A stretch of 64,000 bases of DNA from Granulosicoccus sp. (GTDB lineage Bacteria; Pseudomonadota; Gammaproteobacteria; Granulosicoccales; Granulosicoccaceae), in the NCBI GenBank assembly GCA_020627685.1, contig JAHDGK010000002.1:164629-228628 (forward strand). The letters run 5' to 3'. Below the pieces are notes generated by a model. It saw only the letters and a program-made list of their open reading frames with translations. It was not told the DNA's origin and did no database searches. Positions 4,657-52,573 of the stretch are shown here, one piece after another; position 1 is the stretch's first letter; every line of letters begins with the position of its first letter. The position numbers and the translations under genes are program-made.

Positions 4657-4748
4657 TCTGAGAAAAAACTCCTATACGCCCCTAACCAGGCTATTCACAA
4701 TGGCCCCTGCCAACTGGGCTGGGGTTGCAGCCTGGCAAATAGCAACCG

Positions 4749-5250
<502 letters not shown>

Positions 5251-35706: not shown

Positions 35707-36840
35707 CTAACTCGTAGCCGACACTCCAGTCGCCGCCGCTTTCGCCGCGCTGACTTCTGGCTCTATTACTTTGCCCTTAGCAACAGCATCGTCATACCAC
35801 TGATCATGATGCTGTTTCGCCCATTCTGCTGACACGTAGCCAGTAGACATGCCTTCGAAAGCCCCTTCTGTACCGGCAGTACCGATATAGATGTGACCCA
35901 ATGCGACCGCTGTCCAGCCTAACGACAAAACCGCGTGCACTAGATTCGCTTGCTGCATGTCAGGACGAGTGCCATCGACCCATGGCAGAAAACCAGCCCA
36001 TTCGGGAATGGTAAAACCGTAGACTGGTGCGACCATCACTATTCCACTGATGCACACCGCCAGACCAACGACAGTCACAAGCCAGAACCAGACTTTCTCA
36101 CCACCGTTCATACGTCCCGCAGGTGGATGGTTTTTACCGATTAGACCGCCGCCTTGCTTGAACCATTGGATATCGGTTGCGTTGGGAAAGTTGTGCCAGA
36201 TCCACATGACAATCATAAGCACAATGCCAACCGAAAATACCGGTCCCATAACATTGTGCACGGTAATGGAGGCTTGAGCCCACATCGCAAAACCCGCTTT
36301 ACCGAGCAATGGAATAAGCAAGGTCTTACCGATCAGCATGCTGATACCGGTAATAGCCAACGCAATAAATGAAATTGCTGTTATCCAATGCGTCAGTCTG
36401 TCAAACCAATTCCAACGCTTGATTTTGCGCCCTGAAGGACGATGATCAAGCTTGTTCTTGCCATGAATCAGGTGATACAGCAGCAAGATAGCGAAAACAC
36501 CCACGATGCCCCAAGGCATGTACTTGGCAATGGTGTTGTCCCTGAGTTGCTGCCATTCAGTGCCGCCCGGTGCAATCAGGACACCGGTTTCAGCACCTTG
36601 TACAGCACTGTAACCACCCACGCCCTCTTTCACGGCACGCCAGTAATTAGAACGCGGGTTAGTTACGCTACCCGCATCCTGAGCAACGGCTTCGGCACCG
36701 AAGAAATGAATAGAGTAACTGGCCAACGGCAATGCCAAAGCCAGCCCCAATATTCCCAGCATGCTGTAAAACGCTATTTTGCGTTTCTTGGCAGGGCTCA
36801 TCTTCTGACGCCGCGCACTATCTATTTGCTCTGTTTGCAT
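35707..36840 (-). CDS. fdhC: Formate dehydrogenase gamma subunit, cytochrome b
   Basis: The membrane anchor passes electrons from the FeS subunit to quinone through heme b. The 377-residue protein has an N-terminal membrane segment (IAFYSMLGILGLALALPLA), a periplasmic part and a second membrane segment near MPWGIVGVFAILLLYHLIHG. The cytochrome-b core with NWFDRLTHWITAISFIALAITG follows, with histidines at HNVMGP and HAVLSLGW as likely heme ligands (segments in parts). A 13-codon extension upstream overlaps fdhB and is not needed; the start is the ATG at 36840. The Ala-rich C-terminus after the last helix is about 40 residues. Confidence 0.92.
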   Translation of the reverse strand: MQTEQIDSARRQKMSPAKKRKIAFYSMLGILGLALALPLASYSIHFFGAEAVAQDAGSVTNPRSNYWRAVKEGVGGYSAVQGAETGVLIAPGGTEWQQLRDNTIAKYMPWGIVGVFAILLLYHLIHGKNKLDHRPSGRKIKRWNWFDRLTHWITAISFIALAITGISMLIGKTLLIPLLGKAGFAMWAQASITVHNVMGPVFSVGIVLMIVMWIWHNFPNATDIQWFKQGGGLIGKNHPPAGRMNGGEKVWFWLVTVVGLAVCISGIVMVAPVYGFTIPEWAGFLPWVDGTRPDMQQANLVHAVLSLGWTAVALGHIYIGTAGTEGAFEGMSTGYVSAEWAKQHHDQWYDDAVAKGKVIEPEVSAAKAAATGVSATS

Positions 36841-36845
36841 CAGCT

Positions 36846-37436
36846 CTAGCCCTCTGTGTAGGCAGTTTCCCAACCCCAAGTCTGAGGACGGCCACCGCGT
36901 CGAAGAACACGTTCTCTGTAGATGTCAGCGATTTCATCTCCATCGCCAGCAATCAGAGCGCGTGTGGAGCACATCTCAGCACAGAGAGGAAGCTTGCCTT
37001 CAGCGATACGATTACGGCCATACTTTTCGTATTCAGCATCGGACAGATCTTCTTCATCAGGGCCACCTGCACAGAACGTACATTTGTCCATTTTCCCGCG
37101 TGCGCCGAACGAAGTTTGCTGAGGGTATTGCGGCGCTCCAAACGGGCAAGCATAGAAGCAGTAACCACAACCAATACACAAACTCTTGTCATGCAATACG
37201 ATGCCGTCGTCTGTGGTGTTGAAACAATCCACCGGGCATACCGCCTGACACGGCGCATCTGTACAGTGCATGCACGCAACGGAGATAGACTTTTCTCCAG
37301 GCTTTCCATCGTCCAGTGTCACCACTCGACGACGATTAACACCCCAAGGCACTTCATGCTCATTCTTGCATGCCGTGACACAGCCGTTACATTCGATACA
37401 ACGCTCGGCGTCGCATAAAAATTTCATTCTTGCCAT
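36846..37436 (-). CDS. fdhB: Formate dehydrogenase beta subunit, four 4Fe-4S clusters
   Basis: FdhB carries electrons between the molybdenum subunit and the cytochrome b. The 196-residue protein has four cysteine groups: CIECNGCVTAC, CMHCTDAPCQAVCP, CIGCGYCFYACP and CTFCAGG with CAEMC. It has no membrane helix at the C-terminus, unlike the beta subunit of the nitrate-inducible Escherichia enzyme, and so matches the short type found with FdhC. It lies 15 bases after fdhA and 5 bases before fdhC. Confidence 0.95.
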   Translation of the reverse strand: MARMKFLCDAERCIECNGCVTACKNEHEVPWGVNRRRVVTLDDGKPGEKSISVACMHCTDAPCQAVCPVDCFNTTDDGIVLHDKSLCIGCGYCFYACPFGAPQYPQQTSFGARGKMDKCTFCAGGPDEEDLSDAEYEKYGRNRIAEGKLPLCAEMCSTRALIAGDGDEIADIYRERVLRRGGRPQTWGWETAYTEG

Positions 37437-37451
37437 TGCTATACCCTCCCC

Positions 37452-40358
37452 TTAGGCCGCTGTGATTTTGCAGAGCGAACACTTCGACTCTTGCATTTGT
37501 GTTACAGAGTCGTATCCGTACGTCATGGTGGTGTTATCTGATTCACCACGAACGTATGGGGCAGACCCTTCCGGGTATTTATCGAGTAAGTCCTCACCCT
37601 GGTACCTGCCACCGAAGTGGAAAGGAGTGAACACTACGCCGCGCGCGACACGATCAGTCACCATCGCTTTGACATGAATCTTGCCGCCTTCAGGGCCTTC
37701 CAGCCAAACCATCTGACCATCCTTAACGCTGATGTCGTTCGCATCGGCCTGGTTAATCTCTACAAACATATCCTGTTGTAGTTCAGCCAGCCATGGATTT
37801 GATCGAGTCTCCTCGCCACCACCTTCATATTCAACGAGACGTCCACTGGTATGAATCAATGGGAAATCTTTGGAATAGTCGGTCGCCTGAATTGAGCCGT
37901 AACGAGTAGGTAGACGATAGTGCGACTTGCGATCTTCGTAAGTCGGATAGTCTTCTACCAAGTCTCGTCGAGACGTGTATAGCGGCTCTCTGTGAACAGG
38001 AATCGGATCAGGGAAAGTCCAAACATTCACACGGGCTTTCGCATTACCAAACGGTGCGCAACCATGTTCGATAGCGACTCGCTGAATACCACCAGAGACA
38101 TCTGTTTTCCAGTTCTTACCTTCCGCAGCCACTTTCTCTTCGTCGGTAAGATCGTCCCACCAGCCCAGCGTTTTGAGCATATCAGCGGTGAATTCAGGGT
38201 AACCATCTTCAATTTCAGCACCGACTGACCAGGAGTCTTCGGCAAGAAGATTGACACCATCTCGCTCTACACCAAAACGTGCGCGGAAGTTAAGACCACC
38301 TTCAGCAACCGGCTTACTCGGATCGTAAAGATTCGGCGTACCCGGATGCTTCATGTCTGCATCACCCCAACATGGCCATGGCATACCGTAGTACTCACCA
38401 TCTAATGGACCACCTTTAGCCTGCAATGTACCTTCATCAAAGGTATTGCGATGCTTCATGTGCTCTTTAATACGCTCTGGACTTTGTCCGGTATAGCCGA
38501 TTGTCCACATGCCGCGATTAAATTCACGAGTGATGTCTTCAATCAATGGCTCGTCGTTAGTCACCTCAATGTTTTTAGTGAGCTCTTCACCAAAGCCTAA
38601 CTTGGTGGCTAACTTGTACATGATGGTGTGATCCGGCAATGCCTCAAACAGAGGCTCAATGACCTTATCTCGCCATTGCAACGATCGGTTAGAAGCGGTT
38701 ACAGAACCATAGGTTTCAAACTGCGTACATGCCGGTAACAAATACATACCGTCTTTTCTATCCGGAAGCACGGCTGTGTGAGTCGGGTATGGATCGATAA
38801 CAACCAGCAACTCCAGTTTTTCCATCGCCGCTTTCATTTCAGGGCCACGTGTTTGTGAGTTGGGTGCATGACCCCATAACACCATGGCTCGGATGTTGTC
38901 TTTCTGAGCAATGTTCTCTTTGTCTTCCAGAACACCATCGATCCAACGAGACACCGGCATACCCGCCGTGTTCATTGGCTGAAGGTCTTTATCACCTTTC
39001 TTCTCGTACGATCCTTGGTCGAAACGATTCTTGACCCAGTCGTACTCTAAGTCCCAAACGCCTGCCCAATGTTTCCAGGAGCCTGCAGACAATCCGTAGT
39101 AGCCAGGTAAGGTGTGTGAAAGAACACCCATGTCCGTTGCACCCTGTACATTGTCGTGACCACGGAAGATGTTGGCACCACCACCGGAAACACCAATATT
39201 GCCCAGTGCTAACTGCAAGGTGCAGTAAGCACGCGTGTTGTTGTTACCGATAGTATGCTGCGTACCACCCATGCACCAGACGATGGTGCCCGGACGATTT
39301 TCAGCCATCGTTTGCGCGGCTTGCTTAATCTGAGCTTCAGGAATGCCAGAGACTCTTTCAACTTCGTCCGGCGTCCACTTAGCGACTTCTGTGCGGATAT
39401 CATCCATGCCGTAAACACGCTGACGAATGTATTCCTTGTCTTCCCAACCGTTTTCAAAGATGTGCCACAAAATACCCCAAATAACCGGTACGTCTGTACC
39501 CGGACGCATTTGCAGGAATTGATCAGAGTGCGCCGCTGTGCGCGTAAATCGCGGATCAACAACAATAAGTTTTGACCCGTTTTCCTTAGCTTTAAGGATG
39601 TGCTGCATGGCAACTGGGTGAGCTTCCGCCGCATTCGAGCCAATGAAAAACATGGCTTTGGACTTCTGCATGTCGTTATAGGAGTTGGTCATCGCACCAT
39701 AACCCCAGGTATTCGCAACACCGGCTACTGTGGTGGAGTGACAAATACGGGCTTGGTGATCGACGTTGTTAGAACCCCAGAGCGCTGCAAACTTTCTGAA
39801 CAAGTAGGCTTGTTCATTATTGTGCTTCGCTGAACCGAGCCAATAAACCGAGTCGGAAGAAGATTCTTCCCGAATTTTCAGCATCTGATCGCCGATATCG
39901 TTGACGGCCTGATCCCAGGAGACCTGAGTCCATTTCCCATCGACGAGTTTCATCGGATACTTCAGGCGACGCTCACCATGCCCATGCTCACGAACAGCTG
40001 CACCCTTCGCACAGTGCGCTCCCATGTTGATGGGTGAATCATAGTCAGGCTCCTGCCCTGTCCAAACACCATTTTGAACCTCGGCGATAACCCCGCAGCC
40101 TACTGAGCAGTGAGTACATATAGAGTGCTTCAGTTCAGTTTCCACGCCGGCTTTCGGGTAGTTTTCAGCCGCCTGCGCTTTACGCATCATGCTGGGCCCT
40201 GCAGATACTGCAAGAGCAGCCCCACCAGCGGTTAACCCGGAATTCTTGAGAAACGTTCGCCGGTTTACCGAAACACCCAGTAAACCCTGCGAAGTACTTG
40301 CCAGCGATTCACCGTTACGAGGTGATAGTTTCGCGGGTGACTTGCGCTTTAATTTCAT
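37452..40358 (-). CDS. fdhA: Formate dehydrogenase alpha subunit, molybdopterin enzyme, Tat-exported
   Basis: This catalytic subunit oxidises formate to CO2 at a bis-molybdopterin-guanine-dinucleotide centre (Mo or W). The 968-residue protein has a long N-terminus with the Tat motif RRTFLK (residues 33-38). Cys81, Cys84, Cys88 and Cys116 bind a 4Fe-4S cluster. The catalytic residue is Cys206 in ARICHSTTVAG, where several relatives have selenocysteine; no in-frame TGA occurs. The C-terminal pterin-binding part includes SGRLVEYEGGG and FTPFHFGG. It is exported folded to the periplasmic face with FdhB. The gene is large and central in the operon. Confidence 0.96.
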   Translation of the reverse strand: MKLKRKSPAKLSPRNGESLASTSQGLLGVSVNRRTFLKNSGLTAGGAALAVSAGPSMMRKAQAAENYPKAGVETELKHSICTHCSVGCGVIAEVQNGVWTGQEPDYDSPINMGAHCAKGAAVREHGHGERRLKYPMKLVDGKWTQVSWDQAVNDIGDQMLKIREESSSDSVYWLGSAKHNNEQAYLFRKFAALWGSNNVDHQARICHSTTVAGVANTWGYGAMTNSYNDMQKSKAMFFIGSNAAEAHPVAMQHILKAKENGSKLIVVDPRFTRTAAHSDQFLQMRPGTDVPVIWGILWHIFENGWEDKEYIRQRVYGMDDIRTEVAKWTPDEVERVSGIPEAQIKQAAQTMAENRPGTIVWCMGGTQHTIGNNNTRAYCTLQLALGNIGVSGGGANIFRGHDNVQGATDMGVLSHTLPGYYGLSAGSWKHWAGVWDLEYDWVKNRFDQGSYEKKGDKDLQPMNTAGMPVSRWIDGVLEDKENIAQKDNIRAMVLWGHAPNSQTRGPEMKAAMEKLELLVVIDPYPTHTAVLPDRKDGMYLLPACTQFETYGSVTASNRSLQWRDKVIEPLFEALPDHTIMYKLATKLGFGEELTKNIEVTNDEPLIEDITREFNRGMWTIGYTGQSPERIKEHMKHRNTFDEGTLQAKGGPLDGEYYGMPWPCWGDADMKHPGTPNLYDPSKPVAEGGLNFRARFGVERDGVNLLAEDSWSVGAEIEDGYPEFTADMLKTLGWWDDLTDEEKVAAEGKNWKTDVSGGIQRVAIEHGCAPFGNAKARVNVWTFPDPIPVHREPLYTSRRDLVEDYPTYEDRKSHYRLPTRYGSIQATDYSKDFPLIHTSGRLVEYEGGGEETRSNPWLAELQQDMFVEINQADANDISVKDGQMVWLEGPEGGKIHVKAMVTDRVARGVVFTPFHFGGRYQGEDLLDKYPEGSAPYVRGESDNTTMTYGYDSVTQMQESKCSLCKITAA

Positions 40359-40435
40359 GGCTTTCTCCTGCTATTTGTGTTGATCATGGCCGAGGGCCAC
40401 AATCACTCTTTGTTTGTTGACGTCAGTGCTGCTTG

Positions 40436-40648
40436 CTAGAAGCGGGCACGTGCGTAGTAGCGCTTGACGTACTCATTGCGCTCATAACCTTTGTTGCCTT
40501 TTGCAGGCTCAACCGTTTCAACCGGAGACTCGAGCACGTCGCTACTTAGCGCAGCCCCACTTGCAACCGTTCCGCCGGCCACTGCAGCTCCTTGGAGGAA
40601 GCCACGTCGTTTGGCATTGATAAACGCTGGTGTTTTCTTTTCTGTCAT
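40436..40648 (-). CDS. Small Tat-signal protein of the formate dehydrogenase region
   Basis: The 70-residue protein carries a Tat-like motif (KRRGFLQGAAVAGG) and a short polar tail ending YERNEYVKRYYARARF. It matches the small 'formate dehydrogenase region TAT target' family (TIGR02811) that often precedes fdhA. The role is unknown; it might help export or assembly of the enzyme. An open frame extends 39 codons upstream into torD but the ATG at 40648 gives the expected N-terminus. It is 77 bases before fdhA. Confidence 0.85.
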   Translation of the reverse strand: MTEKKTPAFINAKRRGFLQGAAVAGGTVASGAALSSDVLESPVETVEPAKGNKGYERNEYVKRYYARARF

Positions 40649-40703
40649 TCCCGTTTCCTCACAAAGATCAGGTTTGGTGTGGTGATCTAATACTGGTTTC
40701 ACA

Positions 40704-41345
40704 TCAACTCTGCATATCAAGCAGCTGACGTTCAAAATCAAAAAAGCTTTCTCCGAAGAATCCAACGGAGCGGTAAAAATGTGCAGCCTTGGCGTTTTGC
40801 ATATCGTTAAAGAAACGCCCTACCCAAGGCTCCAGGTGATCATTAAAAAACTGTTGCTGAGTGGCGAGCGGAATTTCATCGCTGCTACGAATGATGATTG
40901 CCATGGACTCGCACAAGGCGGCAATGTGATCCTCTGATTCGACAATACCTTCCTGACGCTCGATACCTAGGGCGGCCAACTCACCGCGTAAGACGGCAAC
41001 CGGCTTTTCCATCAGGAAGCCCGTCATGTACCACGATCCAAACGGCACCAATTCTCCACGCCCTAGTCCAATGAAAAGCGCAAAGTACTCCTCGTGGACT
41101 GATTCGAGCTGCGTTTTGCGGCTGGCTTGCTTCATGAGCTCCCAGCCCATGGCGATTTGACCCTCGCTGGCATCGACTTCCCCGATGCCGCGTAAGCGCT
41201 CAAGCGTTTCTTCTTCAGGGCGTCGTGCCAGAAGGCTGGCCAACAGATCGTAGACGGCAGCACGCATGGCTTGCGCCTGATCTTGAAGAAATTCGTGCTC
41301 GCTTTTGACGCTTAGCACTGGCTGATCTGTGGTCATTACATTCAT
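40704..41345 (-). CDS. TorD/DmsD-family chaperone for a molybdoenzyme
   Basis: TorD-like proteins bind the Tat signal of a molybdoenzyme and hold it for cofactor insertion. The roughly 213-residue helical protein includes the family pattern YDLLASLLARRPEEETL, LESVHEEYFALFIGLGRGELVPFGSWYMTGFLMEKPV and EDHIAALCESMA (segments in parts). FdhA is its obvious client from position. Two in-frame ATGs, three codons apart, could serve as the start; the longer frame begins 12 codons earlier. It sits between the ferredoxin-like gene and the Tat peptide gene. Confidence 0.9.
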   Translation of the reverse strand: MNVMTTDQPVLSVKSEHEFLQDQAQAMRAAVYDLLASLLARRPEEETLERLRGIGEVDASEGQIAMGWELMKQASRKTQLESVHEEYFALFIGLGRGELVPFGSWYMTGFLMEKPVAVLRGELAALGIERQEGIVESEDHIAALCESMAIIIRSSDEIPLATQQQFFNDHLEPWVGRFFNDMQNAKAAHFYRSVGFFGESFFDFERQLLDMQS

Positions 41346-41479
41346 TACCCCAAGTTTTAAACAGACGGAATCAAGCCTCAAGCCCTTTCGCTATACCGAA
41401 ACCGGATCCCAACCGGTCAGAGCAATTCATCCATTTTTGTGTGGAATTTCCTGACCGGTCCAAAATGTCGCACCCTGCC

Positions 41480-43180
41480 CTAGGATGGTGGACGGTGCAC
41501 CTCTATGCCGCCAGCTTCGTCCTCGAACATGTCTTTCACACGGCAATCGCCACAAAGTTTCAGGCGTCTCTGCGCCTTTGCATCCTGAAACATCCAGTGA
41601 CCCGCCAGCTTGGTTGTCATGGTGTCAATCATGGCCTGAGTGGTGAAGGCGGTATGACACTTAATGCAGTGGAACGGCACCTCGTCGTGCAAGGTTTCCG
41701 TTTTTCGAGCGTCTATGCTGTCCCAGGTGTACTGAGCAGTCAGTGAAATGGCAGATTCAGGGCAAGCTTGCTCACAAAGCCCACACTGAAGACAATTCGC
41801 CTCCACGAACCGAAGCGCCGGTGTGTCTTGCCCGTCAAGCAGTGCCTTCGCAGGACATGTAGACACACAGGCCATGCACAGCGTGCAAGCAGAGGTATCC
41901 ACATTTATTCGGCCAAATGGCGCGTGAGCCGGTAATTGAACAGCCTTAGCAACGGGCTTGAGTTGTTCCGATAAAGCATCCAATGCCATGCGCAGCGTCT
42001 GGCGCTTATCCCCATGGGTGGCGAAATCGCGGGGTACCAGATTTTCCAGTAAAGACTTTAAACCCGGTTCCCGGCCTGAAGCGTTGTCCAGACTCCGAGT
42101 TTGCTTAATACCACCCAACGTATCACTCAGAGTTGTCGATGTGCACAGGGTGACGGGAGAATTCTCGACCCCAAGACCTGCGAGTAACGGATCTATCCAC
42201 TCCAGTTGAGACACCATTGCCAGCCGGTTCGGATCGTCCTCATCGGCATCATGCACAACCACAATATGATTTGCCGAACCTGCCAGTAGAGACAGCCAGT
42301 AATCCGCACCAAAGGCTGACACTTCCTCCACGAGCATAGGTAAAACGTCATCAGGGAGGTGCGCGTTGTCGACTGCACTCTGTTGGCTTTCCGTATGCAA
42401 CACGACTATGTCAGCAGTGTGATCTGCCATCGCCTTGCGCGTTCTATCGATTGCGTCAGCCGGTCTTGGGTAGGCGTAGGTCATGGCACCGCTTGGGCAT
42501 ACTGTCGCACAGCTACCACAGCCTTGACATAAAAACGGATCTACACTGACACCTTCTCCGTCAGAACTGATAGCCCCTGTGGTGCACACATCAATGCATC
42601 GGTGACACCCGTCCAACTCGCTACGGCTATGCGCACATACTTTGCTGTTGTAACTGAAATAGCGGGGTTTTTCGAACTCGCCTGTCATGTCGACAAGTGC
42701 TTCGACCGCCTCGGCGATGCTCTCATCTGATGCCGCATGGTAGTAACCAAATGGCGCAAGACGCATTGGCATATGAGGCGTGCTTGATAAGTCCAACACC
42801 AAGTCAAAGAATCCTGTCTCTCGATAAACGGATACAGCCAGATCATGGTCGGTTTTGCCGGCAATACTCTGCGCAGGCACCAATGCTTTGTAAGCACCTA
42901 AATAACCACTGAGAGACAACTGAGGAACTGTGAATACTGCAACCCCGTCATCCGTGAGTTGTTTTTCTACACGTTCGCATTCCGGGTCGACGTTAACCAC
43001 AGTAATTCTGGAATGCCCTAACGGTGCGGCAGCTGCCAGAGCGCTTAACGGATCGCCGATAACCAGGCAGTGTCCCTGAGAGACATACTGAATTTGAGAC
43101 GTCGCCTGACCCAGTTGCTGATTTTGTATATAGCTATTTGCATCGCGTACAAAGGTTACCGGTTGCTGCGGGTCACTCAT
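41480..43180 (-). CDS. Multi-cluster 4Fe-4S ferredoxin-like protein of the formate dehydrogenase operon
   Basis: The roughly 566-residue soluble protein has an N-terminal domain with a nucleotide-binding look (GHCLVIGDPLSALAAAAPLG). Two ferredoxin-type sites follow (CHRCIDVCTTGA, CQGCGSCATVCPSGA), then a middle domain (about 240-400) with HIVVVHDADEDDP. Another pair comes after it (CTLCMACVSTCPAKA, CLQCGLCEQACPESA) and a final cysteine group CIKCHT and CGDCR. It may be an electron-transfer partner or an assembly factor of the dehydrogenase. The start at 43180 is preferred over an ATG 22 codons upstream because DUF3306 would otherwise overlap by 44 bases. Confidence 0.85.
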   Translation of the reverse strand: MSDPQQPVTFVRDANSYIQNQQLGQATSQIQYVSQGHCLVIGDPLSALAAAAPLGHSRITVVNVDPECERVEKQLTDDGVAVFTVPQLSLSGYLGAYKALVPAQSIAGKTDHDLAVSVYRETGFFDLVLDLSSTPHMPMRLAPFGYYHAASDESIAEAVEALVDMTGEFEKPRYFSYNSKVCAHSRSELDGCHRCIDVCTTGAISSDGEGVSVDPFLCQGCGSCATVCPSGAMTYAYPRPADAIDRTRKAMADHTADIVVLHTESQQSAVDNAHLPDDVLPMLVEEVSAFGADYWLSLLAGSANHIVVVHDADEDDPNRLAMVSQLEWIDPLLAGLGVENSPVTLCTSTTLSDTLGGIKQTRSLDNASGREPGLKSLLENLVPRDFATHGDKRQTLRMALDALSEQLKPVAKAVQLPAHAPFGRINVDTSACTLCMACVSTCPAKALLDGQDTPALRFVEANCLQCGLCEQACPESAISLTAQYTWDSIDARKTETLHDEVPFHCIKCHTAFTTQAMIDTMTTKLAGHWMFQDAKAQRRLKLCGDCRVKDMFEDEAGGIEVHRPPS

Positions 43181-43202
43181 GTTTTTATCCTTGAAATACA
43201 AC

Positions 43203-43994
43203 TCATACTGATTCGGGTACATCTTTTTTAACGGTGCCGAAAACATCCGATGCTAGTGACTCATCATCCATTTCAGCTAACTGCAATGCTGGATCCTCAA
43301 GATCGGACTCATCGATTGCATCAGACGGCTCTTGCTGCTCGTCGTGCGTATCATGTTTTGGTGATTCTTCGCTTCGCTCCGTTGTCACTTGTCCATCGGA
43401 GTCGCTGTGCTCAGCCGCTTCCTGCTGCATGCGTTCTTGTTCCATTTTTTCCTGCTGCATTTGCAATTCTTCTTCAGCCTTTTTAGCTTCTGCCTCGGCT
43501 TCCAAGCGGGCTTTTTCTTTACGGGCAGCATGGAATTTCATGTCTGAGGTTATGGTGTCACCCAAGGGCTCGAAAACCGTGTAATCACCGTCGTAGTCAT
43601 TAAGTCCATCTCGTACATTAAACTCAGGTTGCTGAAAGACATACCGTAGGGCTGCCTTTCGTAGCGCAGCACTGACTCCTTTATTGAAAAATGCGCTGAC
43701 ATCACTGGAGGCAGTTAGGCTTTCAATCGGCGGCATATCCGCATCTGTAAGTAGCGGCTCTACATCAGCATCAACCTCACGGTCAAGATCTGCCGGTGCT
43801 TGTTCTGGGTCTTGATAAGTTTCTTCAACCGGCGTGAGCGGGCTAGCGTCGGCGTCAGCATCGATATCTGGAAACGGAGGCAGGACAGGCGTATTTTTGT
43901 TGGGCCAGTCCTCGATAGTCGGAGAGTTTGCTGCCTCTCGTTTACGGGTTGACCATCGCTTTAAAAATCCGGGGTCTTGGGTTTGATCTGTCAT
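43203..43994 (-). CDS. DUF3306 domain protein
   Basis: The 263-residue protein starts FLKRWSTRKREA and has the family core VSAALRKAALRYVFQQPEFNVRDGLNDYDGDYTVFEPLGDT (read in parts, about residues 105-150). The rest is low complexity and very acidic, with a Glu/Gln/Met-rich helix (about 165-210). The function of DUF3306 is unknown; it occurs beside DUF3305 in formate dehydrogenase clusters. Its ATG overlaps the DUF3305 stop by four bases. Confidence 0.88.
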   Translation of the reverse strand: MTDQTQDPGFLKRWSTRKREAANSPTIEDWPNKNTPVLPPFPDIDADADASPLTPVEETYQDPEQAPADLDREVDADVEPLLTDADMPPIESLTASSDVSAFFNKGVSAALRKAALRYVFQQPEFNVRDGLNDYDGDYTVFEPLGDTITSDMKFHAARKEKARLEAEAEAKKAEEELQMQQEKMEQERMQQEAAEHSDSDGQVTTERSEESPKHDTHDEQQEPSDAIDESDLEDPALQLAEMDDESLASDVFGTVKKDVPESV

Positions 43995-44548
43995 GAACGA
44001 TTAATCCCCTTGCCAGTCTTGAGGGAACCGTTACCCGGCTCCTCCGACCAATTGCGCCTTTTGCGCTTCTTAAAAGGAGCAGGCTTGTAGTGTTCAAGTA
44101 CAAAGGCTTCCATGTAGCGGTAAAGCTCCGGAGGGATGGGAGCACTAAGCACCAGTGAATCTGTCTCGGCGCAAGCGGTCGCTTCGTCATAATCGATGGT
44201 GACAATGACCGGACTGATCGTCACTCCGGATTCATCCGGGTCGTCTGCATCATCACGGCAGACGACGTAAACCAAAGGCTTATCTCCAATTAGGGCGTGC
44301 CAGTAACGTTCGCAGGCATCTTTGTAGAGAGTAACTTTGAAGCCGGTCCAGGCAAATAAGTCGCCCTTATCCGTGCTACCGGTTTTTACCGATGAATCAG
44401 ATTGGGAGGCGTTGGCGGCTACACTGTCGCCGACGGCCACTGCGTGCAGGTACCAAGATGGCAATGACCAGAATGAACGCGTGATTATTCTGCGCTCTAA
44501 CAGAACGGTCACAGGCAAATGCAATCGAATTTTAGAATCAGCAGACAT
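43991..44548 (-). CDS. DUF3305 domain protein
   Basis: The 185-residue protein has the DUF3305 signature: LPVTVLLERRIITRSFWSLPSW near the start, KVTLYKDACERYWHALIGDKP, VYVVCR, and VTIDYDEATA with PELYRYMEAFVLEHYKP (segments in parts). Its C-terminus is Lys/Arg-rich. It is the first gene of the formate dehydrogenase operon, divergent from fdhD across about 247 bases. A longer frame begins 50 codons upstream, but the ATG at 44548 gives the expected start. The family's role is unknown. Confidence 0.85.
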   Translation of the reverse strand: MSADSKIRLHLPVTVLLERRIITRSFWSLPSWYLHAVAVGDSVAANASQSDSSVKTGSTDKGDLFAWTGFKVTLYKDACERYWHALIGDKPLVYVVCRDDADDPDESGVTISPVIVTIDYDEATACAETDSLVLSAPIPPELYRYMEAFVLEHYKPAPFKKRKRRNWSEEPGNGSLKTGKGINRS

Positions 44549-44795
44549 GGCAACAGTTCGAACGGCCAACACACAAGCTCTACTATTGCATGCGTGGAAC
44601 AGCTGTTGAAGCCCTTCTTCACCTACGAATGCCCCGAAACGGCCCTCTTGATCGAGAAAAGTGCAGAGCACCGAAAAAATCGGGACAATTTGTCTCAAAA
44701 AATCACTTGCACGCGAAATCTCCGTCGGCGTTAGACTTCACTTGCGCCGCTCAGACTCTTAAAGTCAATAAACAGATTAGTACCGAGACCCGTCC
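44549..44795. other. Divergent promoter region between DUF3305 and fdhD
   Basis: These 247 bases separate the minus-strand formate dehydrogenase operon from plus-strand fdhD and its regulator. Both promoters are expected here. I looked for a sigma-54 site (TGGCAC-N5-TTGCA) and saw none. No clear sigma-70 pair stands out. Confidence 0.4.
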
Positions 44796-45683
44796 ATGCC
44801 GAATGCCTCCATGCCCTACCAACCCGTCCTGAGCAACGAGGGGCTGATGCCGGCTCATGGGGTTGTGGCTGTTAATGAATTTGGTGATTCAGTTGATGCT
44901 CACATTCCCGGTGAATTACCGCTAACCATCCGTGTCGACGGCATGGAAGTCGTGACCCTCATGACACTCGGGACTCAGCCGGAAGCGCTGACACTTGGCT
45001 ACATCAGAAATCAGAAACTCATTGAAGACATTAGCCTGATTAAATCGGTAGAAGTGGACTGGGATAGAGAACTTGTGGATGTCACCACCCACGAGGGGCA
45101 AGGGATTTCTGACTGGCAAGAGAAGATGAAGCGCCGAATCATCACCAGCGGTTGCGGCCAAGGCACTATTTTCAGCTGCACTGTCGATAAGCTTTATGAA
45201 GTCACTCTAACTAAGCCTTCTCTTAAGCAATCCGAGCTCTACGCGCTTATCAAAAACGTCAGTCAGCTTAACGATGTTTATCGCGTTTCTGGAGCGGTGC
45301 ATGGTTGCGGCCTTTGCACATCAACGGAATCGCTGATGCATATTGAAGATGTAGGCAGGCACAACGCAGCCGATGCCATCGCTGGAAAGATGTGGCTTCA
45401 GGGCCTGACAGGCGATGACAAAATTTTCTACACCACCGGACGCCTGACCTCTGAAATCGTTATGAAAACGGCCTTTATGGGCATTCCAACTCTGCTTTCC
45501 CGATCGGGTGTGACACAAATGGGTTTGGAACTCGCTCAGGAAATCGGCATGACGATGATTGCTCGCGCCAAAGGGCGACATTTCATGATTTACAACGGAC
45601 GGGAGAACATGGAGTTTGATGCCATTCCCCCTGAACGAAGGACACCGCCTCCGACCAAAGGCATGCGTGATCTGGCCTCGTAG
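44796..45683 (+). CDS. fdhD: FdhD sulfurtransferase for formate dehydrogenase
   Basis: FdhD transfers sulfur from IscS to the molybdenum cofactor so that formate dehydrogenase can work. The 295-residue protein has GELPLTIRVDGMEVVTLMTL, the catalytic-loop region TSGCGQGTIFSC, VHGCGLCTSTESLMHIEDVGRHNAADAIAG and TTGRLTSEIVMK (segments in parts). At the catalytic loop there is one cysteine (C120) followed by GQG, where the Escherichia protein has CxxC. The start could also be the ATG five codons later. It is divergent from the operon it serves. Confidence 0.93.
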   Translation: MPNASMPYQPVLSNEGLMPAHGVVAVNEFGDSVDAHIPGELPLTIRVDGMEVVTLMTLGTQPEALTLGYIRNQKLIEDISLIKSVEVDWDRELVDVTTHEGQGISDWQEKMKRRIITSGCGQGTIFSCTVDKLYEVTLTKPSLKQSELYALIKNVSQLNDVYRVSGAVHGCGLCTSTESLMHIEDVGRHNAADAIAGKMWLQGLTGDDKIFYTTGRLTSEIVMKTAFMGIPTLLSRSGVTQMGLELAQEIGMTMIARAKGRHFMIYNGRENMEFDAIPPERRTPPPTKGMRDLAS

Positions 45684-45689
45684 ACGACA

Positions 45690-46631
45690 ATGAGCGCCAC
45701 CCCTGACAAGCGCTTGAACAATCCGGCGAGTGCGAACCCGTCCTTCTTAACGGTTCCGCAGCTGGCTGAGCTACTTCACGTCAATGAAAAGAAGATTTAT
45801 CAGATGGCCGGGTGCGGAGAAATCCCGGGTACCAAAGTCACCGGTAAGTGGATATTTCATCGCCAGCTAATCGATGACTGGTTATTGGAAAATAGTCATG
45901 GCGGAGTGATGCATGATCGGCTGCTGATTGGTGGCAGCGATGATCGACTCATTCACTACCTGTGTAATAACGCCGCTATTGAGTGGCAACAAAATGCGCT
46001 CGTAAGCTACAGCCCTTCCGGCACCCGTCATGGTTTGAGAATGCTCGACTGTGGGCGTATCGATGCGTGTTTTATTAATTGGGGAGCCAGTGAGGAAAAT
46101 GCCAGGCGGCATTTGGGTTTACTGCGCTGTTATCGAAATCATCACAGTTGGGTCATCGTGAGATGCTTACAACGAAGCCAGGGCTTGGTGCTAAACCGAT
46201 CAGTTGATTTTACAAGCACGCCGCCGCAAGTAGCGCAGGTGATTAACGACGACTCGCTTCGCTGGGCAATGCGGCAAAATGATTCGGGAACAGAACGCTT
46301 GTTGGAAGATTTATGCTCAACACACGGCCAGAGCCTGGCCTCGCTAAAAGTCTCTACAGAATGCAACAGTGAGCGCAGCGCAGTCGCAGCGGTTCACAGT
46401 GGTGCGGCCGATGTCAGTTGTGGCGTACAGAGCACAGCCGAGGAATTCCAGCTTCCCTATTTACCGGTCGCCGATGTTTCTCTGGATCTTGTCATGACCC
46501 GCAAAACCTACTTTCGAACACTCGTGCAGGACTTTATTGCGCGTTTTCAGGATGCGAATACTCATGCCATGGCCACAAGCCTCAGTGGCTATCAACTGAT
46601 GCCTCACGCTCAGTTAGTCACCATCGACTGA
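45690..46631 (+). CDS. HTH regulator with C-terminal substrate-binding-like domain
   Basis: The 313-residue protein starts with an excisionase-type HTH (FLTVPQLAELLHVNEKKIYQMAGCGEIPGTKVTGKWIF read in parts, about residues 19-60). A domain like the PBP-type substrate-binding proteins follows (about 75-300), with LLIGGSDDRLIHYL, YSPSGTRHGLRML and SERSAVAAVHSGAADVSCG (segments). Related regulators sense molybdate or tungstate. It starts six bases after fdhD, so it probably controls this locus, but the ligand is an inference. Confidence 0.82.
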   Translation: MSATPDKRLNNPASANPSFLTVPQLAELLHVNEKKIYQMAGCGEIPGTKVTGKWIFHRQLIDDWLLENSHGGVMHDRLLIGGSDDRLIHYLCNNAAIEWQQNALVSYSPSGTRHGLRMLDCGRIDACFINWGASEENARRHLGLLRCYRNHHSWVIVRCLQRSQGLVLNRSVDFTSTPPQVAQVINDDSLRWAMRQNDSGTERLLEDLCSTHGQSLASLKVSTECNSERSAVAAVHSGAADVSCGVQSTAEEFQLPYLPVADVSLDLVMTRKTYFRTLVQDFIARFQDANTHAMATSLSGYQLMPHAQLVTID

Positions 46632-46640
46632 TCGTTAAAC

Positions 46641-48815
46641 TTAGCTTCCGGTTGCAGCTAAGGTTTCGCCGTGCGGCTGATCATTCAGACGTGCATGCAA
46701 CAAAGAACGGTCAAAAACTCTAAGCACCTGCTCTTGACGCAAGGCAAGGCCCGTCAATTTTTCCGGCGTGTCTATTCCCAACTCGCGACGAATTTCCTGA
46801 CGACGTAACGCACTGGCACGGTATTCGAGAAAAGTGTCTTCACTGCGTGGGGAATCGCCAGTTGCATCTTTGGCATAAAGCGTTGTGTATCCCAGTCGCG
46901 GCAATCGGCCGGAAGCCAGACTATCGATAAGCTGGCTATCATCCAGAAGCGTATCCAGAACTCGCGCTGAAAATTGTTCTCTGTTGACGTTACTGTCATA
47001 GAAAAGATCGATGAGTAATTCGCGCTGATTTTCATCCAAGCCATATTCGTGGGCAAGTATGGCCAAATTTTGAGTGACGTACATGTCTTCATAAGCCAGT
47101 ACCGTATCGACAATAGCGGACCCGGCTTTTAAACGTACGGTATTGACGTGATGCGGTCGAGTCGCATATTGAGGGTCTGCTTGGCTGTCTTTCAATTCAA
47201 TCAGCAGGCGCTCTACAAGAGGTCTGACAATAGCCCCACGATCGCGTTCTGCCCAGTAAATTCGTGCACCGCTGTGTCGCCAGTGGCCTGTCATGAGTTC
47301 AGGGTCTCTTATGCCTTCTTCCAGCGAGACAACGGTATCAAGCAATTTGATAACGATACCCGCCAGGGTGTAAGGGACGCCTGCTTCCGTGGCCTTTACC
47401 GTCATGTCTGTAAATCGGCCCACGTTGTACTGCGCCTGTGGGGAGAGCAAATGCGGCTGCTGTAGTGTCAACTTGGCTTTGCTAGCACCTGCTGAATCAA
47501 CAGAAGAATCAGTCAGCTCAGAGACCATGGCGGCAATCGGCCCACCAAATCGGAACTGAATTTTTCTCAAGGAGTGGCCGTAACCTGTGACCCGCTCTGA
47601 GCCATCTTCGACTACATCATGGAGCATGGCTAAGGTGACAACCAGGGGTTCCAGCGCCCGGCCCAAAACACGTTCTGCAATGGCGGCGATACGAAAGGCA
47701 TGAGCCGCCATGGTACTTAATGACTTTCGGCGACCTTTCTCAAGAGAGCGCATCATCTCCAAACTGGCAATATGAACAGATTCGATACTGTTCGGTGCCT
47801 CGGCTGCGACGTAGTATTCCATGACGGGTAAATTGATATGAACCTCGTGAACCGCCTTGCCTCGCCTGCCCGATAAACGTTCGAGCTTTTCAGGATCGTC
47901 GAGCGCGTCTCTGACCGCCATCAGCAACGTGTTTCTTAAGGGCTCTCGCAATGCGTAGTGATCTACCCCGGTGAGCTTAAAGGCCGCGGCAGTTAATTCA
48001 TAATGCTTTTTAAGTAGTGGCTTTTCAGGAAATTGGCAGGAGCAATCCACTCCTGCTTCACCAAGCTCCATCCGCATCTCAGCGTCCATAAAGCTGATGA
48101 CTTTATCTCCAGCCGCACGGGCAACCAATCGAAGCCGACTGGCCTGAATGGCTGCGATAGCTGTCGCGATTTCCGCTGATGGGGGTTGCGGTATTTCAGT
48201 GCCGCTCTCAACAGCTTGGTTAAATTCGACAAGGTACTCGTTGATTGCAAGGACCAGTTTCGCCACGGAATCACCAAACCAACTGAATAGGTACGTGCTA
48301 TCGACCAGTTCGTTATCCTCAGTCGAGAATGCACCGTAACGGTGTGCCTTGCCGTAGGAGTCCTGCAGCATTGTCGCGACAATCATGTCGTGAGACATAG
48401 ACGTCATGCCTTTGCCGTGAGCACCGTACAGTCGAACGCCCAACAGCATGTTCGCTGCCAGAACAGCCTGATGGATAATCGGCTCGAGTTTAGGCAGGCG
48501 ATTGGTGTTGATTAGATGCTCGCGACCGGCCCCTCTGATATCGAGTTTTTCCGGGCAGATGGTTTCAGGGTCTATGTCCTGATCGGAGAAAAACTCCGTG
48601 GCTAAGATGTCCCGTCCGCGCTGGGTATGGAACAAAGGCTCAGGCAAGGAGGAAAGAGGAACAAAGTGCTCCACCTCTTTTGCTATCCACTTGCGCGACA
48701 GAGTACCTGCAACGACACGTTCCATATCAGAAGTTCCAGCGAGAACTCCGTAGGCTCTGACGAGCTTGACTAGATCAGTGAGCGGATATGCGCGCGCCAC
48801 AATGGCTGTTTCCAA
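46641..48815 (-). CDS. Large protein with a SpoT/RelA-type HD domain, function unknown
   Basis: The 724-residue protein is not one I can name. Its centre (about residues 365-500) has the HD-hydrolase signature of RelA/SpoT proteins: His372, then His399-Asp400 in AMLHDVVEDG with Glu403-Asp404, and KLLD (490-493) in IVIKLLDTVVSLEEG. These correspond to the metal and catalytic residues of (p)ppGpp hydrolases. No synthetase, TGS or ACT domain is present. The N-terminal ~350 residues are mostly helical with no obvious family, and the C-terminal ~200 are likewise unassigned. It lies downstream of the histidine kinase on the same strand, across a 130-base gap. Confidence 0.6.
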   Translation of the reverse strand: METAIVARAYPLTDLVKLVRAYGVLAGTSDMERVVAGTLSRKWIAKEVEHFVPLSSLPEPLFHTQRGRDILATEFFSDQDIDPETICPEKLDIRGAGREHLINTNRLPKLEPIIHQAVLAANMLLGVRLYGAHGKGMTSMSHDMIVATMLQDSYGKAHRYGAFSTEDNELVDSTYLFSWFGDSVAKLVLAINEYLVEFNQAVESGTEIPQPPSAEIATAIAAIQASRLRLVARAAGDKVISFMDAEMRMELGEAGVDCSCQFPEKPLLKKHYELTAAAFKLTGVDHYALREPLRNTLLMAVRDALDDPEKLERLSGRRGKAVHEVHINLPVMEYYVAAEAPNSIESVHIASLEMMRSLEKGRRKSLSTMAAHAFRIAAIAERVLGRALEPLVVTLAMLHDVVEDGSERVTGYGHSLRKIQFRFGGPIAAMVSELTDSSVDSAGASKAKLTLQQPHLLSPQAQYNVGRFTDMTVKATEAGVPYTLAGIVIKLLDTVVSLEEGIRDPELMTGHWRHSGARIYWAERDRGAIVRPLVERLLIELKDSQADPQYATRPHHVNTVRLKAGSAIVDTVLAYEDMYVTQNLAILAHEYGLDENQRELLIDLFYDSNVNREQFSARVLDTLLDDSQLIDSLASGRLPRLGYTTLYAKDATGDSPRSEDTFLEYRASALRRQEIRRELGIDTPEKLTGLALRQEQVLRVFDRSLLHARLNDQPHGETLAATGS

Positions 48816-48945: not shown

Positions 48946-51105
48946 TCAGGAAGTTCGAACGGCCGGTATGTAAACCTCAAAGGTACTTCCCTGCATGTTG
49001 TCGGACTGCACACGAATATCACCACCGGAGCGTCTGATAATTCCATAGCTCACCGATAAGCCCAGGCCTGTCCCTTGCGCTTTGCCGCTGGTGAAGAACG
49101 GGTCAAATACTCTTGGCAAATCTTGGGGCTCGATTCCACATCCAGAATCCTCCACGCGAATCAGGACCTGCTGATTATCCAGATCGGAGGTGCTGATGGT
49201 TATAGATTGCTGCTCAACTACTCCCACCTCTGTATTGGACATTTTCTGCCGGATCGCTTCAGCCGCATTGGTAATGAGATTAACCAACACTTGCTGGAGC
49301 TCCTGACGATCAACCAGGGCAAGCTGGCTGGCAGAATGCGACTGTTTGACTTCGATCGCCTGACCTTCGAACTCGTGCAAGAGCATTTTCAACGTGCCCT
49401 CAATGACGGATTCTAGATTGACCGGCTCAACCGGAGATTGCTCGTACTCCGATCTGGACGGGCTAATATCCGAGCGAATACTTTCACTGGAAAGCCGCGG
49501 ATCTCCACTCTGAATTTCCGAGCGAGAGTACTGCAGCAGCCGATCGGTGATTGATCGGATTCGATAAACTTGTTCGATAATCAAATCGATTTCTGTTTGC
49601 ACGTTCTCCCGTAAAGGCCCAAGGTCGGCAACCAGAACATCCATATTGCCCAGAATGACGGCTGTGGGATTATTGATTTCGTGCGCTACACCAGCGGTAA
49701 GCTCACCTAAGGCTGCAAGCTTTTCCGCATTTGCCAGTTGTCGGCGGGTTTTATGTAGTAGGTCGATCGAGTCATGCAGCCGTTGGTTTTGGGTTTCCAG
49801 TTCGGCCGTCCTGTGCTGCACTTTGTCCTCTAATACGGCGGCATCGTGTTCGATGCGATCACGATGGGACTCAAGCGTATCCAGCATGGCATCGAACTGT
49901 GAGGCGAGCTCGCCAATTTCGTTACCGGTAGACATTGGTCCGATACGCCGATGCTCACCAGCGGCTGTAGCGCGTACCACTGATGTCATCGTTTCTATCG
50001 GTGTGAATATCGCTCGAGCACCGAGTATTGCCGCGCCTACCGCCAATAAGCTACCTCCCAATACCAGGGCCGAAAGTACTGCGATAGCTTTGTACAGCTG
50101 AGCCCGGAATGGCGCTTCCAGATAGCCTGCGTACAACATACCAACACGCATCCCCGCAACATCGAGAATCGGTTCGTATGCCGATATATACCAATCATTA
50201 ACAACGAACGCTCTGTCAATCCAAGATTCACCTCTGGATAAAACGGCATCACGAACTTCAACAGATACGCGGGTACCAAGCGCACGAGTGTCATCGCTCT
50301 TAGGCACATTGGTGGTTATACGGACATCTTCCAGGAAGACCGTAACGGTTCCTCGACTACCCGGTGCGAGACTTCCCGGACCGTATACCAAATCTCGAAT
50401 TTCATCGACAAAATCGAAATTTCGATTCAGTAGCAACCCGCCTTCTAATATGGCAACCCTTTCGCCAAGGGCGTTAAGTACCGGTTGCAACGTTCTGATG
50501 ATCATGGCTCGATCTTCTGCGGATCGGTCACTGGGTGCGGCGCGCGCGGTAGCCAACAGAGGCAACACAACCATCTCCGCAAGAATTCGCTCTTCACGCC
50601 CCCATTCATCGGCAGAATAAATTTCAATACCGGTCATACCCAAGTTGTTATCGGCGTTATTCAACGCAAGCAACTGTTCGGTTAACGGGGACTCACGAAG
50701 ATGATGACTGACCCAACCGTTCGAACTGAGCTGTTGCTTACCATCAACAGACAGAAGTTTTAAAAAATCAAAGTTATAGTCAGAACGGTACGCTTCGAGT
50801 AACTGGATTAGCTGATTGGAATCTTGCTTTGTATAAAGATCCGACATTCTCGAACTAGCAGCCAATGCTGAGAGCGTCTTCTGACCATCTTTTTGTATGC
50901 GTTGAAAACTCTCACCCGCTACACGTAAATCTGTATTTACTTTGGTAAACAGTTGTTCATAGGTGTAATCGGTAGACCACCTAGATGCCAACAGAACCAC
51001 CGTACCTGTCAATAACAACAACGGCACCAGCACCAATGCCAACAAACGGTAACGTAAATTAGAGAAACGTTTTAGAAAACGACTAGATGATGTTTTTTGG
51101 ATCAC
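48946..51105 (-). CDS. Membrane sensor histidine kinase
   Basis: The 719-residue kinase starts with GTG, with helix 1 at about residues 21-41. A large periplasmic sensor (about 42-335) shows a Cache-like region, and helix 2 follows (about 340-362). HAMP comes next (363-415), then a coiled coil. HisKA has the phosphoacceptor His475 in TAGVAHEINNPTAVILGN, and the ATPase domain has LVNLITNAAEAI, VEDSGCGI and GKAQGTGLGLSVSYGI. It starts 16 bases after the response regulator and is its likely partner. The signal sensed cannot be read. The internal N-box is complete, so the kinase looks active, unlike its partner's ATPase. Confidence 0.92.
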   Translation of the reverse strand: MIQKTSSSRFLKRFSNLRYRLLALVLVPLLLLTGTVVLLASRWSTDYTYEQLFTKVNTDLRVAGESFQRIQKDGQKTLSALAASSRMSDLYTKQDSNQLIQLLEAYRSDYNFDFLKLLSVDGKQQLSSNGWVSHHLRESPLTEQLLALNNADNNLGMTGIEIYSADEWGREERILAEMVVLPLLATARAAPSDRSAEDRAMIIRTLQPVLNALGERVAILEGGLLLNRNFDFVDEIRDLVYGPGSLAPGSRGTVTVFLEDVRITTNVPKSDDTRALGTRVSVEVRDAVLSRGESWIDRAFVVNDWYISAYEPILDVAGMRVGMLYAGYLEAPFRAQLYKAIAVLSALVLGGSLLAVGAAILGARAIFTPIETMTSVVRATAAGEHRRIGPMSTGNEIGELASQFDAMLDTLESHRDRIEHDAAVLEDKVQHRTAELETQNQRLHDSIDLLHKTRRQLANAEKLAALGELTAGVAHEINNPTAVILGNMDVLVADLGPLRENVQTEIDLIIEQVYRIRSITDRLLQYSRSEIQSGDPRLSSESIRSDISPSRSEYEQSPVEPVNLESVIEGTLKMLLHEFEGQAIEVKQSHSASQLALVDRQELQQVLVNLITNAAEAIRQKMSNTEVGVVEQQSITISTSDLDNQQVLIRVEDSGCGIEPQDLPRVFDPFFTSGKAQGTGLGLSVSYGIIRRSGGDIRVQSDNMQGSTFEVYIPAVRTS

Positions 51106-51121: not shown

Positions 51122-52573
51122 TTATTGCGAAGTATCAGCGCTTTGCCAAAGCGTTTGTTTACGTTCGAGCGTTTTTCGAGATACGCCTAACAAACGTGCA
51201 GCAGCCGACTTATTGTTATTGACCGATTCAAGTACCGATTCAATATGAGCACGCTCAACGGCATCCATAGACCAATCTAAAGGATATCCTGGTTCAGACC
51301 ATTGCAAGCTTTGCGGTTCTGAACTCAAGCTATCAAGCGGCAAGGCTCCCAGCAGCAAAGTTCGTTCTATAACATTACGAAGCTCGCGCACATTACCCGG
51401 CCAAGAGTAGTTTTCTAAAATCTGCCAGTCTTTGTGTAATAGCTCTACGCGCTCTTGCCTCATTTCTGAAGACAAACGATCCATAAAATAATTGACCAGC
51501 AGTTCCAAGTCAGAACCTCTTTCTCGTAACGGAGGTACAACAATAGAAAGTACATTTAAGCGGTAGAACAAATCATCACGTAAAGCTGCCGAATGATGTA
51601 ACTGCTCGATATCTTGCGTCGAAGCAGAAATGATTCTTACATCCACTGAAATATCGCGTACACCACCCACAGGTCTTATGCGACCTGTCTCCAGCACTTC
51701 AGCAAGTTTTGATTGGATCAGTTCAGGAAGACATCCCACTTCATTTAAAAACAAGGTGCCCTTGTCTGCATGTACAAAAAGTCCGTCAGACAAATGAGGT
51801 TTTGATGTAGTGGATGCATCGGTCGCCCCAAACAATTCCTGTTCAAACATCTCTTCGTCTATTGATGCGCAATTGAGAGACACAAAGGAACCGCTACGTC
51901 GGCTCATGGAATGTATTGCCCGAGCGATGATCCCCATACCGGTTCCGGTCTCACCTTGAATAAGCACGGGAGATTGACTGGGGGCCGCACGTTGAGCCAA
52001 AGACAGCATCTCTTTCATAGCCGAGCTATTTGCAACCAGACCACTGTCATCCTGAATTTGTTGAAGCTGTAAACGCAGCAAAGAATTCTCACGCAGTATT
52101 TGACGACGCATGAGTGTTCGTTGCATGGATAAAAACATCTGCTCCGTTCGGAACGGCTTCATAATGAAATCATCTGCGCCATTTCGCAGTGCCGATATCG
52201 CCATCTCTAAGTCAGCGTATGCGGTCATGTAAATAACGTGAGTTTGTACGCCACGCTCTCTTAACTTACCCATCCAATCCAAACCGGACAATCCAGGGAG
52301 GCGTATATCAACCAAAAGTAAGTCGAAGTGATAACGCAATCGCAATGCTTCTGCTTCTTCAGCACTGCCCGCCACTTCGAGTAACGCGCAACGATCTTCC
52401 AGCGCGCGCTTTAAAAAATTGAGCATCCCCGGCTCGTCATCAACGACCAAGATGGCTGCAGATCTGAGCAGTCGATTAAATTCCAGCTCATCGTCTACTT
52501 CATTTTTGTAAGAGTGTTGCGACTGCAAAATCGTATACCGGTTAATTAGGACGCATTGTGTAAGGCTCGACAA
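51122..52573 (-). CDS. NtrC-like response regulator with degenerate AAA+ domain
   Basis: The 483-residue protein has an intact receiver (acidic Asp45/Asp46, phosphoacceptor Asp89, Lys139) and an NtrC-type AAA+ domain (about 180-400). A Fis-type HTH closes it (about 440-471, NNNKSAAARLLGVSRKTLERK). In the AAA+ domain Walker A is GETGTGMG, with Met213 for Lys. Walker B is GTLFLNE, with Asn277 for Asp. The GAFTGA sigma-54 contact loop is missing after ELFG. The arginines in ALRDDLFYRLN remain. ATPase-driven sigma-54 activation is therefore unlikely. No ATG precedes the receiver; the start is an upstream TTG and is uncertain. Confidence 0.88.
   Translation of the reverse strand: MSSLTQCVLINRYTILQSQHSYKNEVDDELEFNRLLRSAAILVVDDEPGMLNFLKRALEDRCALLEVAGSAEEAEALRLRYHFDLLLVDIRLPGLSGLDWMGKLRERGVQTHVIYMTAYADLEMAISALRNGADDFIMKPFRTEQMFLSMQRTLMRRQILRENSLLRLQLQQIQDDSGLVANSSAMKEMLSLAQRAAPSQSPVLIQGETGTGMGIIARAIHSMSRRSGSFVSLNCASIDEEMFEQELFGATDASTTSKPHLSDGLFVHADKGTLFLNEVGCLPELIQSKLAEVLETGRIRPVGGVRDISVDVRIISASTQDIEQLHHSAALRDDLFYRLNVLSIVVPPLRERGSDLELLVNYFMDRLSSEMRQERVELLHKDWQILENYSWPGNVRELRNVIERTLLLGALPLDSLSSEPQSLQWSEPGYPLDWSMDAVERAHIESVLESVNNNKSAAARLLGVSRKTLERKQTLWQSADTSQ

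Follow-up and report, generated by a model that had tools for sequence, protein, structure and literature searches.

On the usual view, an obligatory ATPase motor ties sigma-54 activators to their promoters, and the family members that lack the GAFTGA loop have so far been described singly, as finished states. NtrC-family proteins without this loop include R. capsulatus NtrC, HupR, TyrR, DhaR, VpsR, YplP and the NtrC and NtrX proteins of Caulobacter (PMC10274813, PMC3162934). R. capsulatus NtrC requires ATP binding, the growth of Caulobacter on ammonium depends on both Walker residues of its GAFTGA-less NtrC, and for VpsR independence of ATP is reported (PMC10274813). HTH mutants of Caulobacter NtrC raise sigma-54 transcripts without a GAFTGA motif (PMC12421884), so loss of the loop is by itself no proof of sigma-54 independence.

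The window analysed here, a stretch of 64,000 nucleotides from Granulosicoccus sp. whose closest named relatives are uncultured Granulosicoccus, carries on its minus strand a further variant of this already known kind, a 483-aa NtrC-type response regulator with a degenerate AAA+ domain (51122..52573). Our literature search found no paper on this regulator in Granulosicoccus. Judged from sequence, there is roughly a two-in-three chance that it is a motor-less, phosphorylation-controlled, local DNA-binding regulator of the nearby formate-dehydrogenase (fdh) cluster, independent of sigma-54 and derived from a former sigma-54 enhancer-binding regulator. Closely related species carry graded states of this one gene at one genomic site, together with a candidate operator, and the conversion of a sigma-54 activator would thus be exposed within a single genus, the marine Granulosicoccus.

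The open reading frame runs from 52573 to 51122 (483 codons, listed start TTG), and the plus strand of the same interval has many stops. Translation may in fact begin downstream of the TTG, as residues 1-24 are unconserved and poorly modelled. Pfam finds Response_reg at residues 41-147, Sigma54_activat at 180-344, the lid at 350-408 and HTH_8 at 436-472, all well over cut-offs; receiver, Sigma54_activat-type AAA+ domain and HTH_8 thus follow one another in the order of the NtrC family, to which the orthologues and the tree also assign the protein. A first-pass annotation had read GETGTGMG, GTLFLNE and no GAFTGA, together with an intact receiver and Fis-type HTH and an intact kinase 16 bases further on. 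Translation and alignment of the minus-strand frame bear out the three motor readings, and the Pfam domains, the pocket residues and the kinase motifs confirm the rest.

Within the AAA+ domain and lid (residues 180-408, 51350..52036), the motor motifs are lost and the predicted fold is intact. The Walker A remnant GETGTGMG (residues 207-214, 51932..51955) has Met213 for Lys and Gly214 for the Glu that follows it, and the Walker B remnant GTLFLNE (residues 272-278, 51740..51760) has Asn277 for Asp but keeps Glu278. In the L1 loop (residues 250-263, 51785..51826), ATDASTTSKPHLSD replaces the GAFTGA region, so that ATDASTTSK follows ELFG. Gly214 and Thr319, the latter in place of the sensor I Asn, are two losses beyond those first described, whereas both putative Arg fingers, the sensor II Arg and the switch Asn234 are retained. 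The protein therefore has neither the GAFTGA L1 loop with its Thr or Ser nor the Walker A Lys and Walker B Asp of a sigma-54 enhancer-binding protein; the combined loop and Walker losses make catalysis unlikely on alignment grounds, and the annotation ‘sigma-54-dependent regulator’ is wrong for this gene. Sequencing error is excluded as the source of Met213 and Asn277, since G006, an independent genome, has both residues in the corresponding places.

The features of a response regulator, by comparison, are all there. The receiver (residues 41-147, 52133..52453) has its acidic pocket and Asp89 intact (D45, D46, D89, T117 and K139 are present in the alignment), and the Fis-type HTH (residues 436-472, 51158..51268) is conserved across the genus. 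The sensor histidine kinase (48946..51105, minus strand) has the layout sCache_3_3-HAMP-HisKA-HATPase_c, with H, N, G1 and G2 boxes intact, and begins at 51105, 16 bases after the end of the regulator gene.

TyrR and DhaR are not known to be kinase-paired response regulators. Like these two and HupR, the window protein is a homologue of sigma-54 activators with GAFTGA substituted or deleted, and those three are sigma-70 dependent (PMC3162934); HupR controls hydrogenase, whereas the window regulator lies by formate-dehydrogenase genes, and no graded within-genus series for HupR, TyrR or DhaR was found in the literature searched. With R. capsulatus and Caulobacter NtrC, which are reported at sigma-70 promoters (PMC10274813), it shares the arrangement REC-AAA+-Fis HTH without a sigma-54 loop, but those proteins keep the Walker residues, whereas it has lost the Walker A Lys and Walker B Asp and differs from them in operon and in orthologous group. 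Vibrio cholerae VpsR is likewise an NtrC-family protein without GAFTGA, reported at sigma-70 promoters with no need for ATP (PMC10274813, PMC3162934); it responds to c-di-GMP and is reported to be independent of phosphorylation, in contrast to the window protein with its linked kinase and intact receiver. Brucella NtrX (5m7n/5m7o/5m7p) has the same REC-AAA+-HTH layout, but was crystallised with ATP and ADP and belongs to an NtrY-NtrX system whose NtrX-like copy is separate in the window genome.

Searching 57 genomes gave about 25 orthologues in the genus and family. Six of them (G015, G020, G011, G002, G025 and G028) have GAFTGA or GAYTGA in the loop and retain the Lys and next Glu of Walker A, the Asp-Glu of Walker B and the sensor I Asn; the loop of G017 is GAFSGA, and the Thr position is Asn in G010, G013 and G005 and Val in G022, the other motor residues being intact. 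The window falls in a clade of 12 genomes (support 100/100 in the regulator tree), recovered with an SH-aLRT of 99 in a tree built from nine neighbouring genes, and all 12 have lost the Thr of GAFTGA. Their loops read GAFAGA, GAFADA, GAFAEA, GAFEGA or DACAGA, are shortened by a deletion of 12 residues (G026 and G008/G019) or, in the window and G006, are unrelated to GAFTGA. The Glu after Walker A is absent from 11 of 11 full-length clade members and the sensor I Asn from 10 of 11, whereas the sister genomes of the clade retain Lys, Glu, Asp-Glu and Asn. Walker B of G008 has Ser for Asp and Asp for Glu, and the switch Asn is also lost. Only the window and G006 combine Lys to Met in Walker A with Asp to Asn in Walker B; several clade members with an altered loop still have both the Walker Lys and Asp. 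The first-pass reading of a converted regulator thus passes the orthologue check proposed for it, with one qualification: the loop Thr is gone throughout the clade and G006 has all three changes, but the joint loss of Lys and Asp is limited to that pair. On this alignment the window, in losing Lys and Asp, represents the far end of a trend that runs through the clade, and the distribution across genomes suggests an order of motor losses in which the contact loop went first and the catalytic residues later. Class-wide, orthologues were found in 29 of 369 genomes, representing 26 genera, and all alignable ones outside Granulosicoccus keep the Lys, GAF[TS]GA or GAYTGA, and the Asp-Glu.

Beyond the kinase lies a gene for a 724-aa protein without Pfam match (46641-48815, minus), conserved and syntenic across much of the genus. 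It is followed by an HTH_17-PBP_like regulator gene (45690..46631, plus) downstream of fdhD (44796..45683, plus), and by a divergent operon on the opposite strand that begins with a DUF3305 gene (43991..44698, minus) and continues with DUF3306, a 4Fe-4S protein, a delta-subunit-like chaperone, fdhA, fdhB and fdhG (35707..43994, minus). The order fdh-fdhD-PBP-(724-aa gene)-kinase-regulator recurs across the genus and is conserved in many orthologue-bearing genomes. Both fdhD and the DUF3305 gene are proposed targets of the regulator.

When intergenic regions were searched for palindromes held in common, GGACAATTTGTCT (44683..44695, no strand), the proposed operator, emerged between these two genes. 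As the listed DUF3305 start overlaps it, the real start of that gene is probably 44549. Of the 20 Granulosicoccus-group genomes, 14 carry an exact GACAWWWTGTC in the fdhD/DUF3305 region (shuffle mean 0.006), in most of them about 85-125 bp before fdhD. Genome-wide, exact sites number 14 in the window genome (G000), 7 in G006 and 22 in G023, against 11, 8 and 7 for the reversed control, near chance in the first two, and the fdh site is the only one common to all three. Two further sites are common to the window genome and G006, one within engB and one between sdhB and pdxJ. A second conserved element, GACTCTTAAAGTC, lies at 44754-44766 between the palindrome and fdhD and is nearly identical in several species.

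The link between palindrome and regulator comes from other gammaproteobacterial genera. Among the 24 orthologue loci there with enough upstream sequence, nine (shuffles 0) have a -24/-12 site directed away from the regulator and, 40-220 bp upstream of that site, a single GGWCANNNTGWCC-like palindrome or a pair of them, usually spaced about 31-34 bp. Such an arrangement is what a sigma-54 enhancer should show, and it links the palindrome to the regulator. In several of the loci (e.g. L044, G044) the divergent gene beyond is tupA-like, for tungstate binding; the literature search found no paper on a tupA-linked sigma-54 two-component system. In Granulosicoccus, the regulator's own upstream region has the palindrome and -24/-12 pair in 0 of 20 genomes, and the tup genes were rejected as a target, their tupA-like members having no such combination upstream.

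That the palindrome belongs instead to the HTH_17-PBP protein encoded next to fdhD, with the response regulator acting elsewhere, we consider rather doubtful. The PBP gene does co-occur with the palindrome, and G016 keeps the palindrome with no regulator detected; against this, the palindromes of the other genera lie directly upstream of the regulator gene, before the divergent -24/-12 promoter, and G031 has two copies beside the kinase-regulator pair, before an oxalate/formate-antiporter-like gene.

Scanned with a sigma-54 matrix based on general consensus frequencies, neither the fdhD nor the DUF3305 promoter of the window gave a -24/-12 site above shuffles, and a 9.5-bit site upstream of fdhA (shuffle 95% level 8.8) is too weak to count. 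Across the genus, sites at fdhA, DUF3305, fdhD, the regulator, kinase and 724-aa genes, torD, ferredoxin and PBP were rejected, none being consistently above shuffles; G023 has an isolated 14.0-bit site upstream of DUF3305. Even where the Granulosicoccus regulator keeps GAFTGA, the fdh promoters have no convincing -24/-12 element, so that loss of the promoter and loss of the motor do not go closely together. By exclusion, the window regulator would act at a sigma-70-type promoter; no convincing sigma-70 element was seen near the window palindrome.

For the sigma-54-independent regulator that we favour, these observations suggest the following as the simplest course. The ancestor would have been a sigma-54 activator of canonical type, under kinase control and associated with tungstate uptake and with formate dehydrogenase. 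Within Granulosicoccus, the fdh target may have lost its sigma-54 promoter first, and the motor would have eroded afterwards, the contact loop before the catalytic residues, while selection held the receiver and HTH. In the present protein, the linked kinase would sense a signal and phosphorylate Asp89, and the phosphorylated regulator would bind the 13-bp palindrome and control fdhD and the DUF3305-fdh genes from a sigma-70-type promoter; our guess is that activation is somewhat likelier than repression. The dead AAA+ domain would be a passive scaffold at most. At the sequence level this account draws on the motor losses and their distribution over the clade, the selection that holds receiver and HTH, the fdh linkage, the conserved palindrome and the ancestral-type palindrome with -24/-12 site elsewhere, and from these we infer palindrome binding, phosphorylation and absence of ATPase activity.

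A more drastic change is seen in G009, where the regulator is a 251-aa receiver-HTH protein (REC and HTH_8) from which the AAA+ domain is absent and in which the phosphoacceptor Asp is Asn. Its gene sits in the fdh cluster beside the DUF3305 gene and a copy of the palindrome. In the neighbour-gene tree, G009 lies outside the 12-genome clade and is sister to G002, whose regulator is intact, so on the assembly of this single genome it is predicted to be at least a second, independent departure from the intact motor. Any scaffold role of the AAA+ domain is not universal, because G009 has deleted it. Compared by layout alone, the protein resembles the two-domain REC-Fis regulators of the ActR/PrrA/RegA type, but it differs from them in having arisen among NtrC-type orthologues and in the loss of its phosphorylatable Asp. 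We tentatively propose, at somewhat less than even odds, that one orthologous regulator in one genus passes through successive states, with motor intact, Thr lost, loop deleted, Walker residues lost and, independently, AAA+ domain removed, the operator being retained throughout, as an ATP-driven sigma-54 activator becomes a receiver-HTH factor. If true, this would be a direct natural record of RegA/ActR-like receiver-Fis regulators arising from NtrC-like ones. The order of loss, sigma-54 contact first and ATPase later, becomes testable through orthologue exchange. The reverse case is found in L044, from a different gammaproteobacterium, with an intact GAYTGA motor and a degenerate receiver; there is no kinase gene between its regulator and PBP genes, and the palindrome and -24/-12 site stand before tupA.

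Rates of change differ sharply along the protein. Between the window and its nearest relative, G006, the proteins are 83% identical (pS 0.82, which is saturated; pN 0.12), with 94% identity in the receiver, 78% in the AAA+ domain and 91% in the HTH. The ratio of AAA+ to receiver-plus-HTH branch length, on a fixed topology, is 3.99 in the clade and 4.88 on its stem, against 1.44 in the rest of the genus, and parsimony changes show the same contrast (Fisher p 6e-7, changes being treated as independent). Because 78% identity persists at saturated synonymous sites, the AAA+ domain of the window appears relaxed yet still constrained. In the AlphaFold2 model its fold is predicted intact with good confidence, the stretch with pLDDT below 50 being the former GAFTGA loop, and Foldseek matches the model to NtrX (top, Brucella 5m7n/5m7o/5m7p), NtrC4, NtrC1, LuxO and VpsR (7v2b). 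The remaining constraint, the fold and the VpsR match would also suit an AAA+ domain repurposed as a sensor of a nucleotide or small ligand that has no need of the Walker Lys and Asp and drives sigma-70 transcription, c-di-GMP having been suggested as such a ligand in VpsR/FleQ-type proteins. This we hold to be improbable, the AAA+ domain being the fastest-evolving part of the protein and one with which G009 has dispensed.

The rpoN gene, whose look-up had been proposed at the outset, is present in the window genome, as in each of the 18 genomes tested that are 90% complete or better, and loss of sigma-54 from the genome is thereby excluded as an explanation. Other NtrC-type proteins with GAFTGA-type loops exist in the window genome; compensation by a close intact paralogue was rejected, the search at E 1e-60 giving none except a 35% identical NtrC-type protein. 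The presence of rpoN and several GAFTGA-bearing activators, with the retained putative Arg fingers and predicted AAA+ fold, would allow the regulator to serve sigma-54 transcription as a non-catalytic subunit, for example within mixed hexamers formed with one of the genome's intact activators, but we regard this as very improbable, given fdhD and DUF3305 promoters without a -24/-12 site and, in the loop deletions (G026, G008/G019) and AAA+ loss (G009), the marks of a drifting domain. Equally remote is a pseudogene in the making, its motor losses the first steps towards loss of the whole gene: G016 has the fdh cluster but no regulator was found (genome 88% complete, contig break), and G014, within the clade, lacks the kinase gene between regulator and 724-aa gene and has VGDE for VDDE and Thr for the conserved Lys in its receiver, but the window frame is open, its receiver and HTH are held at saturated synonymous sites, the losses persist over 12 genomes and the palindrome is conserved. 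Conversion away from sigma-54 rather than decay, as first proposed, is supported by the shared losses of G006 at that divergence, by the clade and by the retention of rpoN.

The label ‘sigma-54-dependent’ is apparently also wrong for at least four other regulators of the window genome. An NtrX-like regulator (G000:C7, L193:2391-3758, plus) between NtrY and trkA has GESGSGR, GTLFLTDV and no GAFTGA, and is thus a further NtrC-type protein without a motor. Tandem NtrC-type regulators (G000:C92, L194:3033-4400 and 4397-5725, minus) have a broken Walker A (GQPGVLK, GDKGVEK) and GTLVLDD/GTLVLDH, again without GAFTGA; G023 (L200) has a pair that looks orthologous, and G017 (L203) a similar protein. 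A further NtrC-type regulator (G000:C17, L195:2946-4259, plus), with HGERGTER, GCLVLRH and no GAFTGA, follows a solute-symporter-type histidine kinase and precedes an acetyl-CoA-synthetase-like gene.
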